A stretch of DNA of 64,000 bases from Xanthomonas nasturtii (GTDB lineage Bacteria > Pseudomonadota > Gammaproteobacteria > Xanthomonadales > Xanthomonadaceae). Shown one piece after another: positions 14,979 to 61,280 of this stretch; the first letter of the stretch is position 1; each line of letters starts with the position of its first letter. A model generated the notes under the pieces. That model made no database searches. It saw nothing but the letters and a program-made list of their open reading frames with translations, and had not been told where the DNA came from. The DNA is taken from the NCBI RefSeq assembly GCF_001660815.1, contig NZ_LYMI01000012.1, forward strand, positions 1 through 64,000, written 5' to 3'. The translations under genes and the position numbers were made by a program.

Positions 14979-15436
14979 GCAGCCTGCCGCAGCGCACGCA
15001 CGATTGGTGGCAGGCACGCGCGCCACGCGAGCGCATCATGTTGTCGGTGATGCTCATCGCGGTGGCCGCGTTCGTCGCCTGGTACTTGGTGGTGGTGCCG
15101 ATGCGGCACTGGCGCACCGCCGCGCAGGCCCGCTACGACGTCGCAGCAGAACAGCTGCTGCACGCACGCGCGTTGCAGCGCGATAGCGTGACTGCAGCGG
15201 TGCCGCGCGCGCGCGTTCTGCGCAGCGCGCACGAGGCCGGTATCCTCATCGTCACTCCGTCGCCCGGCGCCCCGGGAACGCTCGAACTGCAGATCGATGC
15301 AGTGACCAGCACCGTGCTGTTTTCCTGGCTGGAGCAACTCCGCCAACGTGACAACCTGGCACCGAGCGCGCTCGATATCACCCGCCGCGACGGCCAGTTG
15401 CAGGTGCGTTGCACGTTTGCGGGCATCGCGCCATGA
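14975..15436 (+). CDS. xcsM: T2SS platform protein XcsM (GspM)
   Basis: 153 residues. A short cytoplasmic N-terminus (HDWWQARAPRERIML) leads into a single membrane helix (LSVMLIAVAAFVAWYLVVVP) and a periplasmic domain resembling the GspM ferredoxin fold (TLELQIDAVTSTVLFSWLEQ). GspM partners GspL in the inner membrane. The W-x-x-R-x-P-R-E-R start is typical of GspM and PilO-like proteins. Confidence 0.87.
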   Translation: MSSLPQRTHDWWQARAPRERIMLSVMLIAVAAFVAWYLVVVPMRHWRTAAQARYDVAAEQLLHARALQRDSVTAAVPRARVLRSAHEAGILIVTPSPGAPGTLELQIDAVTSTVLFSWLEQLRQRDNLAPSALDITRRDGQLQVRCTFAGIAP

Positions 15437-16149
15437 CACGGCTGCGTTGGCTGTTACTCACCGCCTTGCTGGGTGCGTTCGGGGTGATCGCAACGTTCCC
15501 ATTGCGATTGGCGATGCCGGTCGAGACGTTGCCAGTTGCAGTGCTCGAAGCACAGGGCTCGCTTTGGAACGGCACCCTGCGTGGGGTGACCTGGAACACG
15601 CAGGAACTGGGCGATGTTGGCGTGCGTCTGCGCGCGTGGCCGCTGCTGCGCGGCGAGCGCCAGATGCAGCTGACCGCGACCACCGCACAGCTGGTGGTCC
15701 TGCAGGGCGCGCGCCACGGCATGGAGCAGGCCAACGGGCGCATGCTGTTGCGTAAGCCGGGCGGGCTCACGTCGATGGATCTGTCGATCGACCTGCGCGA
15801 TGTCCGCGCCATCTTCGACAGCACGCGCTGCACACAGGCCGGCGGCGACGTCGCAGTACAGGTGCTCCCCACTCCTGCGGGCGAAGCAGCAGGGCTGTTG
15901 CCGCTACGCCTGCGCGGTAGCCCCCAGTGCGTGGACGCTGCGGTGGTGCTGGCGCTCACGCCCGATGGCGGCCTGCCCGAGGGCGTCGACCTCAGCGCCG
16001 AGCTGCGCCTGCAGCGCGATGGTCACTGGCAATGGCGCACGCAGGTCGAACCGGGCAAGGACAGCGCCCTGCAGCTTGGCTTGCAACTGCTCGGCTTCAC
16101 GCAGACGCCGGAGCGCTCGCTGGTGCGGGTCGATCAGGGGCGCCTGTAA
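15433..16149 (+). CDS. xcsN: T2SS protein XcsN (GspN)
   Basis: 238 residues from the ATG at 15433, overlapping xcsM by ATGA. An N-terminal membrane anchor (LRWLLLTALLGAFGVIATFP) precedes a periplasmic domain with LEAQGSLWNGTLRGVTW. That G-x-LWNG block is the GspN signature. GspN is dispensable in many T2SS and its role is unclear. It is the last gene of the operon. No U-tract terminator is obvious in the following 390 bp. Confidence 0.88.
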   Translation: MTRLRWLLLTALLGAFGVIATFPLRLAMPVETLPVAVLEAQGSLWNGTLRGVTWNTQELGDVGVRLRAWPLLRGERQMQLTATTAQLVVLQGARHGMEQANGRMLLRKPGGLTSMDLSIDLRDVRAIFDSTRCTQAGGDVAVQVLPTPAGEAAGLLPLRLRGSPQCVDAAVVLALTPDGGLPEGVDLSAELRLQRDGHWQWRTQVEPGKDSALQLGLQLLGFTQTPERSLVRVDQGRL

Positions 16150-36078: not shown

Positions 36079-36272
36079 TGGGATTCGTTGATTCGGGATT
36101 CGGGATTGGTTGCGTCATGGGGCCGGCGAGAGTCACTGGCAATCCACTCGTCAATGTCGGTGTTGGTGCTGCGAAGCGAAGATCGGCTGGCTTGGATTGG
36201 CCGTTGGATGCAGCCCAGGGAGAGGCAAACATCTGCTGTTACGAATCCCCAATCCCAACTCCCCAATCCCAG
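36079..36272. repeat. GGGATTC-arm hairpin element between holC and valS
   Basis: The left arm at 36079-36112 is made of degenerate GGGATTC/GGGATTG units. The right arm at 36241-36272 is made of the complementary AATCCCC units. They enclose about 130 bp and fill the whole gap between the two genes. Confidence 0.75.
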
Positions 36273-36708: not shown

Positions 36709-36828
36709 GCAGGGAATCGGGAGAGGGGAATCGGGAATGGTCACGGCATCGCCGCGACCTCGAAGGTCGCGGCGATGACTGAGAGGAGAAGGGTTTCACA
36801 ATTCCCGATTCCCGATTCTCAATTCCCA
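36709..36828. repeat. GGGAATC-arm hairpin element between pepA and holC
   Basis: The left arm at 36709-36740 (GGGAATCGGGA units) and right arm at 36799-36828 (TTCCCGATTCCCGATT) enclose a perfect 14-bp hairpin, CATCGCCGCGACCT / AGGTCGCGGCGATG (36747-36777). The right arm overlaps the pepA stop codon. Confidence 0.8.
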
Positions 36829-44089: not shown

Positions 44090-47000
44090 ATGATGGTCCT
44101 CGAGGGCGCTTCCGCCCTTTCGCCGTTCCGCCGCGCTCGGCTCGAAACCCGCCTGCAAACCCTCGTCCCCGCGCTGCGCATCACCGGCGCCTGGCACGTG
44201 TACTTCATCCGCGTCGAGGCCGGGCAAGCGCCCGATCAGGCCACCTTGCAGCGGATCCTGCAGGCCGACGCCGCCCCCGCGCCGCGCGATGCCGATGCCT
44301 CCTCGCGCTACGTGGTCCCGCGGCTGGGCACGCTGTCGCCGTGGTCCAGCAAGGCCACCGAACTGGTGCGCGGCGCCGGGCAGCCGATCCAGCGCGTTGA
44401 ACGTGGCACCCGCATCGACCTGGCCGGCTGGCCGGAGGACGCGCCCGCGCAGGCTGCCGTGGCCAAGCTGCTGCACGACCCGATGACGCAGTCGCTGCTC
44501 GGCTCGGCCGCCGCTGCCGAGGCGCTGTTCAACGTGCCCGACCGCGGCCACTTGCAGCGCGTGCCGCTGGACGGGCTGGAGCAGGCCAATCGCGACCTGG
44601 GTCTGGCGCTGGCGCAGGACGAGATCGATTACCTGCGCGAACGCTTCGCCGCGCTGGGGCGCGACCCGGCCGATGTCGAATTGATGATGTTTGCGCAGGC
44701 CAATTCCGAGCATTGCCGGCACAAGATCTTCAATGCCAGCTGGACCATCGACGGCAAGCCGCAGGAACGCTCGCTGTTCCGCATGATCAAGCACACCCAC
44801 CAGCAGACCCCGCAGCACACCTTGTCTGCCTACAGCGACAACGCGGCGGTGGTGGAAGGCGTGCCGGCCGCGCGCTATCGCCCGGACCCGGCCAGCGGCG
44901 AATACCGCAGCGAAGCGGTGCTGCCGTCGGCCTTCGCGATCAAGGTGGAGACGCACAACCACCCCACCGCGATCGCGCCGTTCCCCGGTGCGGCCACTGG
45001 CGCAGGCGGAGAAATCCGCGACGAAGGCGCCACCGGTCGCGGCGGCAAGCCCAAGGCCGGCCTGACCGGGTTTTCGGTCTCGCACCTGCGCATTCCCACC
45101 CTGCCGCAGCCGTGGGAAGCGCCGCGCGCGCTGAATCCGCGCATGGCGCCGGCGTTGGACATCATGCTCGATGGCCCGCTCGGCGGCGCAGCCTTCAACA
45201 ACGAATTCGGCCGGCCCAATCTGCTTGGCTACTTCCGCAGCTTCGAGCTCGCCGAAGGCCCGGGCCTGACCCGCGCCTACGACAAGCCGATCATGCTGGC
45301 CGGTGGCTTGGGCGCGATCGATCGTAACCAGGTCGAAAAGCTGCGCCTGCAGCCGGGCGATGCGGTGATCGTGCTGGGCGGCCCGGCGATGCTGATCGGC
45401 CTGGGCGGCGGTGCGGCCAGTTCGGTGGCTGCCGGCGACAGTGCCGAAGCGCTGGATTTCGCCAGCGTGCAGCGCGAAAACCCGGAGATGGAGCGCCGCT
45501 GCCAGGAGGTCATCGACCGCTGCGTGGCGCTGGGCGTCGACAACCCGATCCGCTGGTTCCACGACGTGGGCGCGGGCGGCCTGTCCAACGCGATCCCCGA
45601 GTTGCTGCACGACTCCGGCGTGGGCGGCATCATCGACCTGGGTCGCGTGCTCACCGACGACCCCTCGCTGTCGCCGCTGGAACTGTGGTGCAACGAATCA
45701 CAGGAACGCTACGTGCTCGGCGTGCCGCAGGCGCGCCTGGAAGAATTCGCCGCCATCTGCGCCCGCGAACGCTGCCCGTTCGCCGCGGTCGGCGTCGCCA
45801 CGGCGGAGGAACGGCTGGTCGTGGGGTATGGGACGCTGGATGGCGGGACCGGGGACCCGGCACCGGGGACCCGGGGAGGGCAAACGCAAGAGCGCGATTC
45901 CGCTTCGTCCGCCGGCGGTGTGTCCGTCGCCGCCGATCCTGCTTTCCCGGGTCCCGGGTCCCCGGTCCCCGGTCCCACTCCCGACCTCCCAATCAACCTC
46001 CCCATGGACGTGCTCTTCGGCAAGGCACCGAAGATGCATCGCGATGCCGTGCATCTGCCCGCGCCGCAGTGGCCGGTGTTGCCGACCGCGTCGCTGGACC
46101 TGCAACAGGCCGGCTTGCGCGTGCTGGCGCATCCCACCGTGGCGTCCAAGAGTTTTCTGGTGACCATCGGCGACCGCAGCGTGGGCGGGTTGACTGCGCG
46201 CGAGCAGATGATCGGGCCGTGGCAGCTGCCACTGGCCGATTGCGCGATCACCCTGGCCGGTTTCGACACCTTCGAAGGCGAGGCGATGTCGATCGGCGAG
46301 CGCACGCCGCTGGCGCTGTTGAATGCGGCCGCGTCCGCCCGCATGGCGGTGGGCGAAGCGATCACCAACCTGTGCGCCGCCCCGGTGCAGCGGCTGGACA
46401 GCATCAAGCTCTCGGCCAACTGGATGGCCGCCGCCGGCCACAGCGGCGAAGACGCATTGCTGTACGACGCAGTGCGCGCGATCGGCATGGAGCTGTGCCC
46501 GGCACTGGAGCTGAGCGTGCCGGTAGGCAAGGACTCGCTGTCGATGCAGGCGCAGTGGGTCGAGGCCGGGATTCGGGATTCGGCATTCGGGATTGGCGAA
46601 ACACCGGGTTCCTCCGTTGTTGCCAATCCGCAATCCCCAATGCCCAATTCCATCGCTCACAAGAGCGTGTCACCCGTCTCGCTCATCATCAGCGCCTTCG
46701 CGCCGGTGGGCGACGTGCGCACGCAGCTGACGCCGTTGCTGCGCAGCGATGAAGAGAGCGAGTTGTGGTTGATCGGGTTGGGCGGTGGCAAGCAGCGCCT
46801 GGGCGGGTCGGTACTGGCCCAGGTGTATGCCGATGATGCGGCGCTTCCTGCGTTCGGCGGCGAGGTGCCGGATCTGGACGACGCGCAGCGCCTGCGCAGT
46901 TTCTTCGAGTTGATCCGCGACGCGCGCGAAAGCGGGCTGTTGCTGGCGTATCACGATCGCAGCGATGGCGGTGCGTTTGCGGCGCTGTGCGAGATGGCCT

Positions 47001-48181
47001 TTGCCTCGCGGCAGGGCCTGGATATCACGCTGGATGCGTGGGGCGACGATGCGTTCCGCAGCCTGTTCAATGAAGAGCTGGGCGCGGTGGTGCAGATCGC
47101 CAGCGAAGATCGCGCCGCGTTCGCCGATCTGGTCGAGCGCCACGCGTTGACCGAATGCGCGCAGCGTATTGCGCGGCCCACCGGTGCGCCGCGCATCCGC
47201 GTGAGCGGGCAGGGCCGCGTGCTGGCCGAGTGGCGTTGGGAAGAGTTGTTCGATGCGTGGTGGTCGGTGACCCATGCCATGCAGAAGCTGCGCGACAACC
47301 CCGATAGCGCCGACGAAGAGCGCGCGCTGGCGCGTGATTTCAAGGCGCCGGGCCTGCGTCCGACGCTGGTGTTCGACCCCTCGGAAGATGTGGCGGCGCC
47401 ATTCGTGGCCACCGGTTCACGGCCCAAGGTGGCGATCCTGCGCGAGCAGGGCGTCAACGGGCAGATCGAAATGGCCTACAACTTCGAGCGTGCCGGTTTC
47501 CGCGCCTACGACGTGCACATGAGCGACCTGATCGAAGGCCGCGTGGAGTTGAGCGAGTTTGTCGGTTTCGCAGCGTGCGGCGGTTTCAGCTACGGTGACG
47601 TGCTGGGTGCCGGCCGTGGCTGGGCGACCTCGATCCTGGAACGTTCGGCGCTGCGCGACGCGTTTGCCGCATTCTTCGCGCGCAGCGATACGTTCGCGCT
47701 GGGGGTGTGCAATGGCTGCCAGATGCTCAGCCAGCTCAAGGACATCATTCCCGGCGCCGAGCATTGGCCGCGCTTTTTGCGCAACCGCAGCGAGCAGTTC
47801 GAAGCACGCACGGCGTTGCTGGAAGTGGTGGAGTCGCCTTCGATCTTCCTGCGTGGCATGGCCGGTTCGCGGATTCCGGTGGCGGTGGCGCATGGCGAAG
47901 GCCGTGCAGAGTTCGACACCGGCGTGGACCAGGCCGCTGCACGCGTGGCACTGCGTTACATCGATGGCGACGGCGTGGTGGCATCGCAGTACCCGCTCAA
48001 TCCGAACGGTTCGCCGGACGGTATTACCGGGCTGACCAATAGCGACGGCCGCGTCACCATCCTGATGCCGCATCCGGAGCGCACGCCGCGCAGCGCAAAT
48101 CTGAGCTGGCATCCGGCCGACTGGGGTAACGACTCGCCGTGGTTGCGGATGTTCCGCAACGCGCGCGTGTGGTGCGGTTGA
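44090..48181 (+). CDS. purL: Phosphoribosylformylglycinamidine synthase, enlarged by two insertions
   Basis: 1363 residues; the single-chain enzyme is usually about 1290-1300. It makes FGAM from FGAR, glutamine and ATP in purine synthesis. Seen in order: the PurS-like N-domain, catalytic [54 protein letters not shown], the second AIRS-like half ([10 protein letters not shown]-type block) and the C-terminal class I glutaminase with nucleophile Cys about 1207 (GVCNGCQML) and His/Glu in PHPERTPRS. Two stretches are foreign: residues about 584-634 (Pro/Gly-rich, from a GGGACC-arm hairpin) and about 826-856 (from a GGGATTC-arm hairpin). Both keep frame and together account for the extra length. 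A start one codon later (44093) is equally possible. Confidence 0.96.
45844..45980. repeat. GGGACC-arm hairpin element inside purL
   Basis: The left arm GGGACCGGGGACCCGG... (45844-45877) and right arm CCCGGGTCCCGGG...TCCC (45945-45980) are complementary degenerate tandem arrays around a 67-bp centre. It encodes [10 protein letters not shown]...[11 protein letters not shown] in frame. Its arms match the element at 61037-61280. Confidence 0.85.
46568..46652. repeat. GGGATTC-arm hairpin element inside purL
   Basis: The left arm (46568-46598) repeats GGGATTCGGGATTCGGC and the right arm (46622-46652) carries the complementary CCAATCCGCAATCCCC. It encodes [10 protein letters not shown]...[12 protein letters not shown] in frame. 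The arms match the intergenic elements at 36079-36272 and 36709-36828. Confidence 0.85.
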
Positions 48182-61036: not shown

Positions 61037-61280
61037 GGGACCCGGGACCCGGGACCGGGGACCCGGGAACAGCCAAGGCAGCAGCGTGGCTGCGTCTTTG
61101 CCACGCGCGGACCTGCGCGCTGCCAGATTCCAGTGCTGCGGCACGCCGTCTTTCACGGGTCAGGGCAGCAACGACGTCCCGGCTGCAGCGCCCATCCATG
61201 CCGACCGAAGCGCCGCAGTGTTCCCGTTGTGCAGTAAACCGATCTTCCCGGGTGCCCGGTCCCCGGTCCCCGGTCCCGGC
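61037..61280. repeat. GGGACC-arm hairpin element between xpsE and xpsF
   Basis: The left arm at 61037-61069 (GGGACCCGGGACCCGGGACC units) and right arm at 61246-61280 (CCCGGTCCCCGGTCCCCGG) are complementary. They enclose about 176 bp with no gene. It fills the whole 265-bp gap in an otherwise tight operon and matches the arms of the element inside purL. Confidence 0.85.

Follow-up and report, generated by a model that had tools for sequence, protein, structure and literature searches.

In the Xanthomonas nasturtii window (the whole stretch of DNA that was analysed, 64,000 nucleotides), the purL gene encodes a protein of 1363 residues, compared with 1294 residues in the PurL of a Stenotrophomonas relative (L042). 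What are these additional residues, and how does a conserved enzyme come to carry them? The original prediction was that two hairpin repeat elements, akin to the ones dispersed elsewhere in the genome, lie in frame inside the gene. Both elements were indeed found, at 45845-45976 and 46568-46651, and they account for the enlarged protein: the excess is 42 + 27 = 69 residues, i.e., the entire difference. The features of the gene are listed below.

44090-48181, plus strand: purL, phosphoribosylformylglycinamidine synthase, 1363 aa (open frame, Pfam domains, PDB sequence matches)
45845-45875, plus strand: site 1 left arm, GGGACCN heptamers (inverted repeat and array scan)
45876-45945, plus strand: site 1 loop (comparison with the X. 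melonis loops)
45946-45976, plus strand: site 1 right arm, GGGACCN heptamers read on the minus strand (inverted repeat and array scan)
46568-46597, plus strand: site 2 left arm, GGGATTC heptamers (inverted repeat and array scan)
46598-46621, plus strand: site 2 loop (inverted repeat)
46622-46651, plus strand: site 2 right arm, degenerate AATCCC heptamers (inverted repeat and array reading)

Two elements at domain junctions of PurL

The Pfam matches on the window PurL are FGAR-AT_N, linker, AIRS_C, PurM_N-like and GATase_5, and its best PDB matches carry the name phosphoribosylformylglycinamidine synthase. The entries 6jt9 and 1t3t are presumably the Salmonella PurL enzyme. The nearest named matches are from Xanthomonas. 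Among the genus members listed, 29 others have a single full-length match, to which the window protein shows 87-95% identity.

The arms of site 1 measure 31 nt and are 90% complementary; those of site 2 measure 30 nt, are degenerate and reach 77% complementarity. The encoded protein stretches correspond approximately to residues 586-629 and 827-854. At both places, the alignment with PDB chain 6jt9_A breaks: query residues 578-631 (54 residues) stand against 7 chain residues at site 1, and residues 827-858 (32 residues) against 5 chain residues at site 2. As AIRS_C (421-579) is directly followed by site 1 and the PurM_N-like match (686-827) ends at site 2, both sites are located at domain junctions. 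In the AlphaFold2 model of residues 215-990, which is poor (mean pLDDT 53), the inserts appear as low-confidence coil, and the predicted placement in surface loops found no confirmation there.

The folding of both hairpins was compared with that of 200 dinucleotide shuffles, as DNA and as RNA. The site 1 hairpin is better than 200/200 shuffles, with a z of -3.6 for DNA and -5.5 for RNA. The site 2 hairpin is weak: 21/200 shuffles fold equally well as DNA and 9/200 as RNA. The 12 matches obtained in a Rfam scan are all weak, below the gathering scores and mostly to microRNA models.

Arm types at the two sites across Xanthomonas

The gene is present in 35/35 genomes of the genus and unbroken in 34. 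In the remaining genome (G027, locus L034), a draft with a completeness of 90%, the frame is broken near both sites, which may be a repeat assembly error or real; this genome was excluded from the site counts. In each of the 34 unbroken genes, the two sites exceed their Stenotrophomonas counterparts in length, with site 1 shrunken to 10 additional residues in G019 and G020, and site 2 just 8 residues longer in G002. This last allele (L029) is without loop and right arm, which by eye fits a deletion between two GAAACGC copies. In the named Stenotrophomonas purL genes, both sites are short in 8/8, and no arrays are present. Equally long, conserved loops are, hence, not a family-wide property. 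Since the sites are always enlarged within Xanthomonas, they are probably occupied by long-resident elements whose sequence was replaced, and not by recent insertions.

Arm types (ATT, AAT or ACC) were assigned by a scripted rule. At site 1 (n = 34), 15 alleles are ATT/ATT, 12 AAT/AAT and 5 ACC/ACC, and 2 are hybrids with an AAT left arm and an ATT right arm. Site 2 (n = 34) is ATT/ATT in 14 genomes, AAT/AAT in 14 and ACC/ACC in 4, with an untyped right arm in 2. The two arms, thus, agree in 32/34 alleles at each site, the exceptions being the two hybrids and the two alleles without a typed right arm. The encoded amino-acid sequence differs between heptamer types. On a tree of the purL core (segments removed, 3822 columns), the minimum number of changes among pure types is 14 for site 1 and 12 for site 2. 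If hybrids and one-armed alleles are treated as separate states, the minimum rises to 16 and 14.

Such turnover bears on the possibility that the segments are maintained as functional parts of the protein, or as an RNA or DNA signal (hairpin, G-quadruplex) acting on purL. The enlargement of both sites in 34/34 unbroken genes is in agreement with a function of this kind, as are the strong RNA hairpin of site 1 and the quadruplexes that GGGNATC oligonucleotides are reported to form in vitro (PMC4692102). However, the encoded sequence varies with the type, G019 and G020 have a shrunken site 1, G002 has lost the right arm of site 2, and the hairpin of window site 2 is weak. Neither the named Stenotrophomonas nor the relative G198 (genus code g7) possesses arrays. 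A maintained function is, all in all, quite improbable.

Xanthomonas sp. 3793 (G006) and G007 diverge by 1.8% over the gene and have 0 differences in the 60 nt on each side of site 2; the arms of that site nonetheless differ, being ATT in G006 and AAT in G007. The G007 allele is nearly identical to the alleles of G004 and G001. The AAT and ATT arms of site 2 each have their own micro-flanks, and the loops are alike, a pattern that fits old alleles moved by allelic recombination. For the switches between AAT and ATT at this site, allelic exchange is a reasonable explanation. Site 1 differs: every one of the four pairings of arm type with the 12-nt left flank was observed (8, 3, 7 and 9 genomes), and exchanges therefore end at or within the element. 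A trio test on the length of conversion tracts did not separate ectopic conversion from allelic exchange.

It may be asked whether allelic exchange suffices for everything. There would then have been one insertion per site, and a few old classes (ATT, AAT, ACC) would have been reshuffled between species by homologous recombination, no dispersed copy ever entering purL. The site 2 alleles with their class-specific micro-flanks and common loop, the resemblance of the G007 allele to those of G004 and G001 and the outcome of the trio test are all compatible with this explanation. The free combination of flank and type at site 1 argues against it.

The dispersed repeat pool and its link to the arms

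Arrays of the same class occur outside purL. The window array scan, counting arrays of at least 3 units, identified the following siblings.

36243-36270, minus strand: ATT-type array
36800-36827, minus strand: AAT-type array
61037-61071 (plus) and 61250-61277 (minus), no strand assigned to the whole: ACC-type element with convergent arrays

The sibling element at 61037-61277 was not flagged as in frame within a gene. Genome-wide, exact 3-unit patterns gave 46 matches for ATT, 50 for AAT and 59 for ACC, compared with 0 for the reversed control, so the heptamer arrays are not due to chance. Overlapping matches inside one array are included in these counts, and long arrays therefore weigh more. 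The predicted kinship with dispersed hairpin repeats is supported. When the site 1 element was compared with its own genome, the matches covered mostly the arms and not the loop. At two places (G000:C10:64852-64931 and G000:C7:40934-40993), ATT and AAT units adjoin in one array or in neighbouring arrays.

A set of 94 unique elements was assembled from the window and from loci or stretches of the own genome fetched for holding arrays, leaving out elements at most 400 nt from a stretch end or close to another element. Both orientations are present in 34 of the 94, and these are convergent in 34/34. According to a codon-score test, 4/94 elements lie in frame inside genes: purL twice, metH and murF, the last two named by a reading of their translations and not by a family search. 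This number is no census, because similarity to arrays guided the sampling and the gene test is a rough one. In-frame cases can also be missed, since a stricter scan overlooked window site 2, which a looser scan found. The six consensus units contain no stop in any of the six frames; an element with a fixed number of units can, therefore, be swapped without loss of the frame.

The arm type at purL tends to follow the composition of the pool. In ATT-armed genomes, the ATT/AAT ratio over the whole genome is higher (Mann-Whitney p 0.001 for site 1 and 0.002 for site 2, kinship ignored). For a paired test, log2(ATT/AAT) was compared between genome pairs on non-overlapping tree paths, branch support not being required. 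With near pairs preferred, 9/9 pairs pointed the same way in 262/300 draws for site 1 and in 211/300 for site 2. After removal of purL's own matches, this was still the case in 256/300 and 198/300 draws (median sign-test p 0.004), and the least favourable draws gave 7/8 and 6/8 pairs the same way. Under fully random pairing, the trend is kept and is not significant (5.5/5.9 and 5.2/5.9 the same way, median p 0.06 and 0.13); a binary pool test with 7 supported pairs (~3 the same way, 0.1 the other way) is not significant either. As to the ACC type, the 6 genomes with ACC arms at purL have 4 to 82 ACC pattern matches outside the gene, and the other 28 intact genomes have none in 20 cases and at least 4 in 5 cases.

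The loops provide a second link. In X. melonis (L033), the ACC loops of site 1 and site 2 are identical at 68/83 positions, and in strain AmX2 at 54/59. The window site 1 loop (as cut, 77 nt) resembles the X. melonis loop of site 1 at 70/77 positions and that of site 2 at 62/77. In these three comparisons between the two sites (68/83, 54/59 and 62/77), the alignment scores exceed the best of 20 shuffles. As sites 1 and 2 are non-homologous, copies of one element occupy both. One ACC loop at two non-homologous places of purL is not expected if alleles are merely reshuffled, and neither is a type that follows the pool in near pairs, nor ACC arms found only where the genome has ACC patterns elsewhere. 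The lack of significance under fully random pairing is the point on which pure allelic exchange gains; it is a serious rival that we nevertheless consider unlikely.

Elements of this kind are also present in metH and murF. The metH element, as found by motif, is present in 27/30 fetched loci; typed by eye, 16 are AAT, 10 ATT and 1, that of the X. nasturtii window genome, ACC. Its type changed at least 9 times on the purL tree and is associated with the ATT/AAT ratio (Mann-Whitney p 0.03, kinship ignored). For murF, 29/30 loci were read. One or both arms are, by eye, of the ACC type in 10/29, and ACC matches occur in the genome in 10/10 of these; among the 19 genomes without ACC arms, they occur in 4 (G012, G017, G027 and G032). 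A loop NTQEHA-IH-QQ is located between the arms in some genomes and is common to some armless ones. Around murF (G000:C12:108311-120141), ACC-type elements cluster at approximately six places in 12 kb.

The preferred reading, to which a probability of about 60% is given, is that these are tolerated PurL segments where dispersed repeats land and recombination overwrites them. The two interdomain segments would be permissive landing sites for hairpin repeats dispersed in the Xanthomonadaceae. An element made up of roughly four heptamers free of stops, a loop and a further four or so heptamers in inverted orientation would have entered in frame and have been resident from a time that precedes the divergence of the sampled Xanthomonas species. 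Recombination, in the form of ectopic gene conversion among dispersed copies together with allelic exchange between strains, may keep the element similar to the other copies in the genome and supply new arms and loops. Both arms would, for this reason, change heptamer type together, and the frame would survive because the number of units is fairly stable and a stop-free array with a period of 7 can be read through in any frame. As the repeat pool of the genome shifts, some 30-45 residues of the conserved enzyme would be rewritten, the enzyme tolerating the segments without any function being needed. Points against this reading are the lost significance under fully random pairing, the class-specific micro-flanks and similar loops at site 2, the own-genome matches of the site 1 element that cover mostly its arms, and the weak hairpin of site 2. 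If the pool reading is true, a portion of a conserved protein changes through concerted evolution of repeats across the genome and not through mutation of its own gene. The variable PurL, MetH and MurF segments of Xanthomonadaceae should not be regarded as adaptive without further evidence.

The mobile nature of the elements, also part of the original prediction, found no support. Two neighbouring Y1_Tnp matches are the sole ones found in the genome (G000:C55:12799-13125 and 15344-15670), and their surroundings (1.5 kb) contain no exact 2-unit heptamer arrays. The repeats do not flank a Y1_Tnp gene, as REP sequences with a RAYT do, and mobilisation of the RAYT/REP kind was rejected on account of the two genes without arrays beside them. 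No target duplication was seen by eye at the purL sites in comparison with short-loop alleles, and a search that covered Y1_Tnp only yielded no partner transposase.

Known repeat systems and relatives outside the genus

The claim that the elements are undescribed holds in part. The repeat class itself is published: Rehm et al. (2015, PMC4692102) reported GGGNATC heptamer repeats of Xanthomonas and Nostoc, with 186 arrays in one strain and 183 in another, of which 89% and 93% are intergenic, 70 inverted pairs in Xcc and 75 in Xac, and an under-representation in genes. These repeats and the purL elements have in common G-rich heptamers, a preference for about four units, dispersal over the genome and convergent inverted pairs (PMC4692102), the last of which was found here in 34/34 paired elements. 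By the definition given there (at least 14 bp, at least one GGGAATC heptamer, units GGGAATC or GGGANTN), the window sites fall outside the class, as they consist of GGGACCN and GGGATTC without a GGGAATC unit, and so does the ACC type as a whole; the AAT alleles at the same two purL sites of other species fall within it. The main text of that study is without purL, metH or murF, and the passages covered here mention neither a change of unit type nor a link to a genome pool (PMC4692102).

In the titles and abstract openings covered, with subscription papers mostly outside that scope, no repeats inside purL and no pool-linked type switching came up. New are the fixed purL sites with a heptamer type that varies between species and tends to go with the genome-wide pool, the one loop at both X. 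melonis sites, the metH and murF elements and an unrelated in-frame palindrome at site 1 in eight genus codes. Fixed sites in closely related species also make repeat turnover measurable.

Palindromes in frame inside protein genes are known: the Rickettsia palindromic elements (RPE) were reportedly described in this position by Ogata et al. in 2000 and 2002. RPE measure 105-146 bp and, like the purL elements, are situated both in intergenic regions and, in frame, within conserved protein genes (PMC2229807), as are 4/94 of the genome-dispersed elements sampled here. Unlike those of RPE, the purL arms are tandem heptamers, their type switches at a fixed site, and the host is a gammaproteobacterium; in-frame palindromic repeats are, thus, extended from Rickettsia to a large gammaproteobacterial family. 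ERIC/RU, NEMIS and other MITE-like bacterial repeats are likewise reported as short, non-autonomous and found in frame, several of them with target duplications (PMC2229807), which were not seen by eye at purL. Mitochondrial genes of Nematomorpha also have inverted repeats in functional protein genes (PMC6649704). There, both arms are reported to encode conserved parts of the protein (PMC6649704), whereas the purL arms occupy segments that relatives lack and are members of a repeat family spread over the genome.

Outside the genus, 40 relatives were fetched, mostly high in the hit list and, thus, no random sample; 35 were read by motif and 5 by eye. Heptamer arrays are present at site 1 in g7 (9/10, two of them degenerate), g2, one g3 and g25 (one orientation), and at site 2 in g7 (9/10), g2, g17, g16 (left arm only) and g51. 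The g7 relative without any arrays is G198. They were also found in the purL of Pseudoxanthomonas sp. 3HH-4 and Luteimonas saliphila.

In 13/40 relatives (eight genus codes, among L300-L326), site 1 carries an unrelated palindrome in frame, encoding the protein sequence SLLPPGEGARRADEG or a close variant from the DNA CCCTTCTCCC...GGGAGAAGGTGCCCGAAGGGCGGATGAGGG. Its core was counted in 26 genomes, including purL's own match where exact. All 13 purL carriers have 2 to 38 matches, the palindrome being dispersed in their genomes. Eight of the 26 genomes have no match and no palindrome at purL, and five match the core elsewhere than at purL (G139, G040 and G117 with one each, G076 with 10 and the window genome with 30). 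Heptamer arrays and this palindrome at the purL sites show that the same places are used by unrelated repeats.

This observation also weighs on the idea that a local heptamer simply expanded into arrays within purL through replication slippage, unrelated to dispersed repeats. Heptamer arrays may slip, and mixed-type arrays do occur in the genome. Slippage would, however, have to produce a loop enclosed by two inverted arms of one type, the sharing of loops by both sites and an association with the pool, and an unrelated palindrome family occupies this place in other genus codes; slippage is disfavoured and hardly credible. The landing-site reading can, on the contrary, be taken a step further: the PurL, MetH and MurF segments would be a running readout of the repeat pool via ectopic conversion, and the interdomain segments of PurL would serve throughout the family as landing pads, which two or more unrelated palindrome families have occupied independently. 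This bolder version is tentative, and we lean slightly away from it.

For 8/13 of the palindrome loci, the compared sequences have a mean identity of 0.81 in the arm, 0.83 upstream and 0.69 downstream (medians 0.91, 0.83 and 0.65), values on which no claim is based. Site 1 of g11, g43 and X. massiliensis (L068, L316-L319) carries a third, G+C-rich insert (GPAQRAGRPD..RGSA), of which three copies are recognizable by eye in X. massiliensis.
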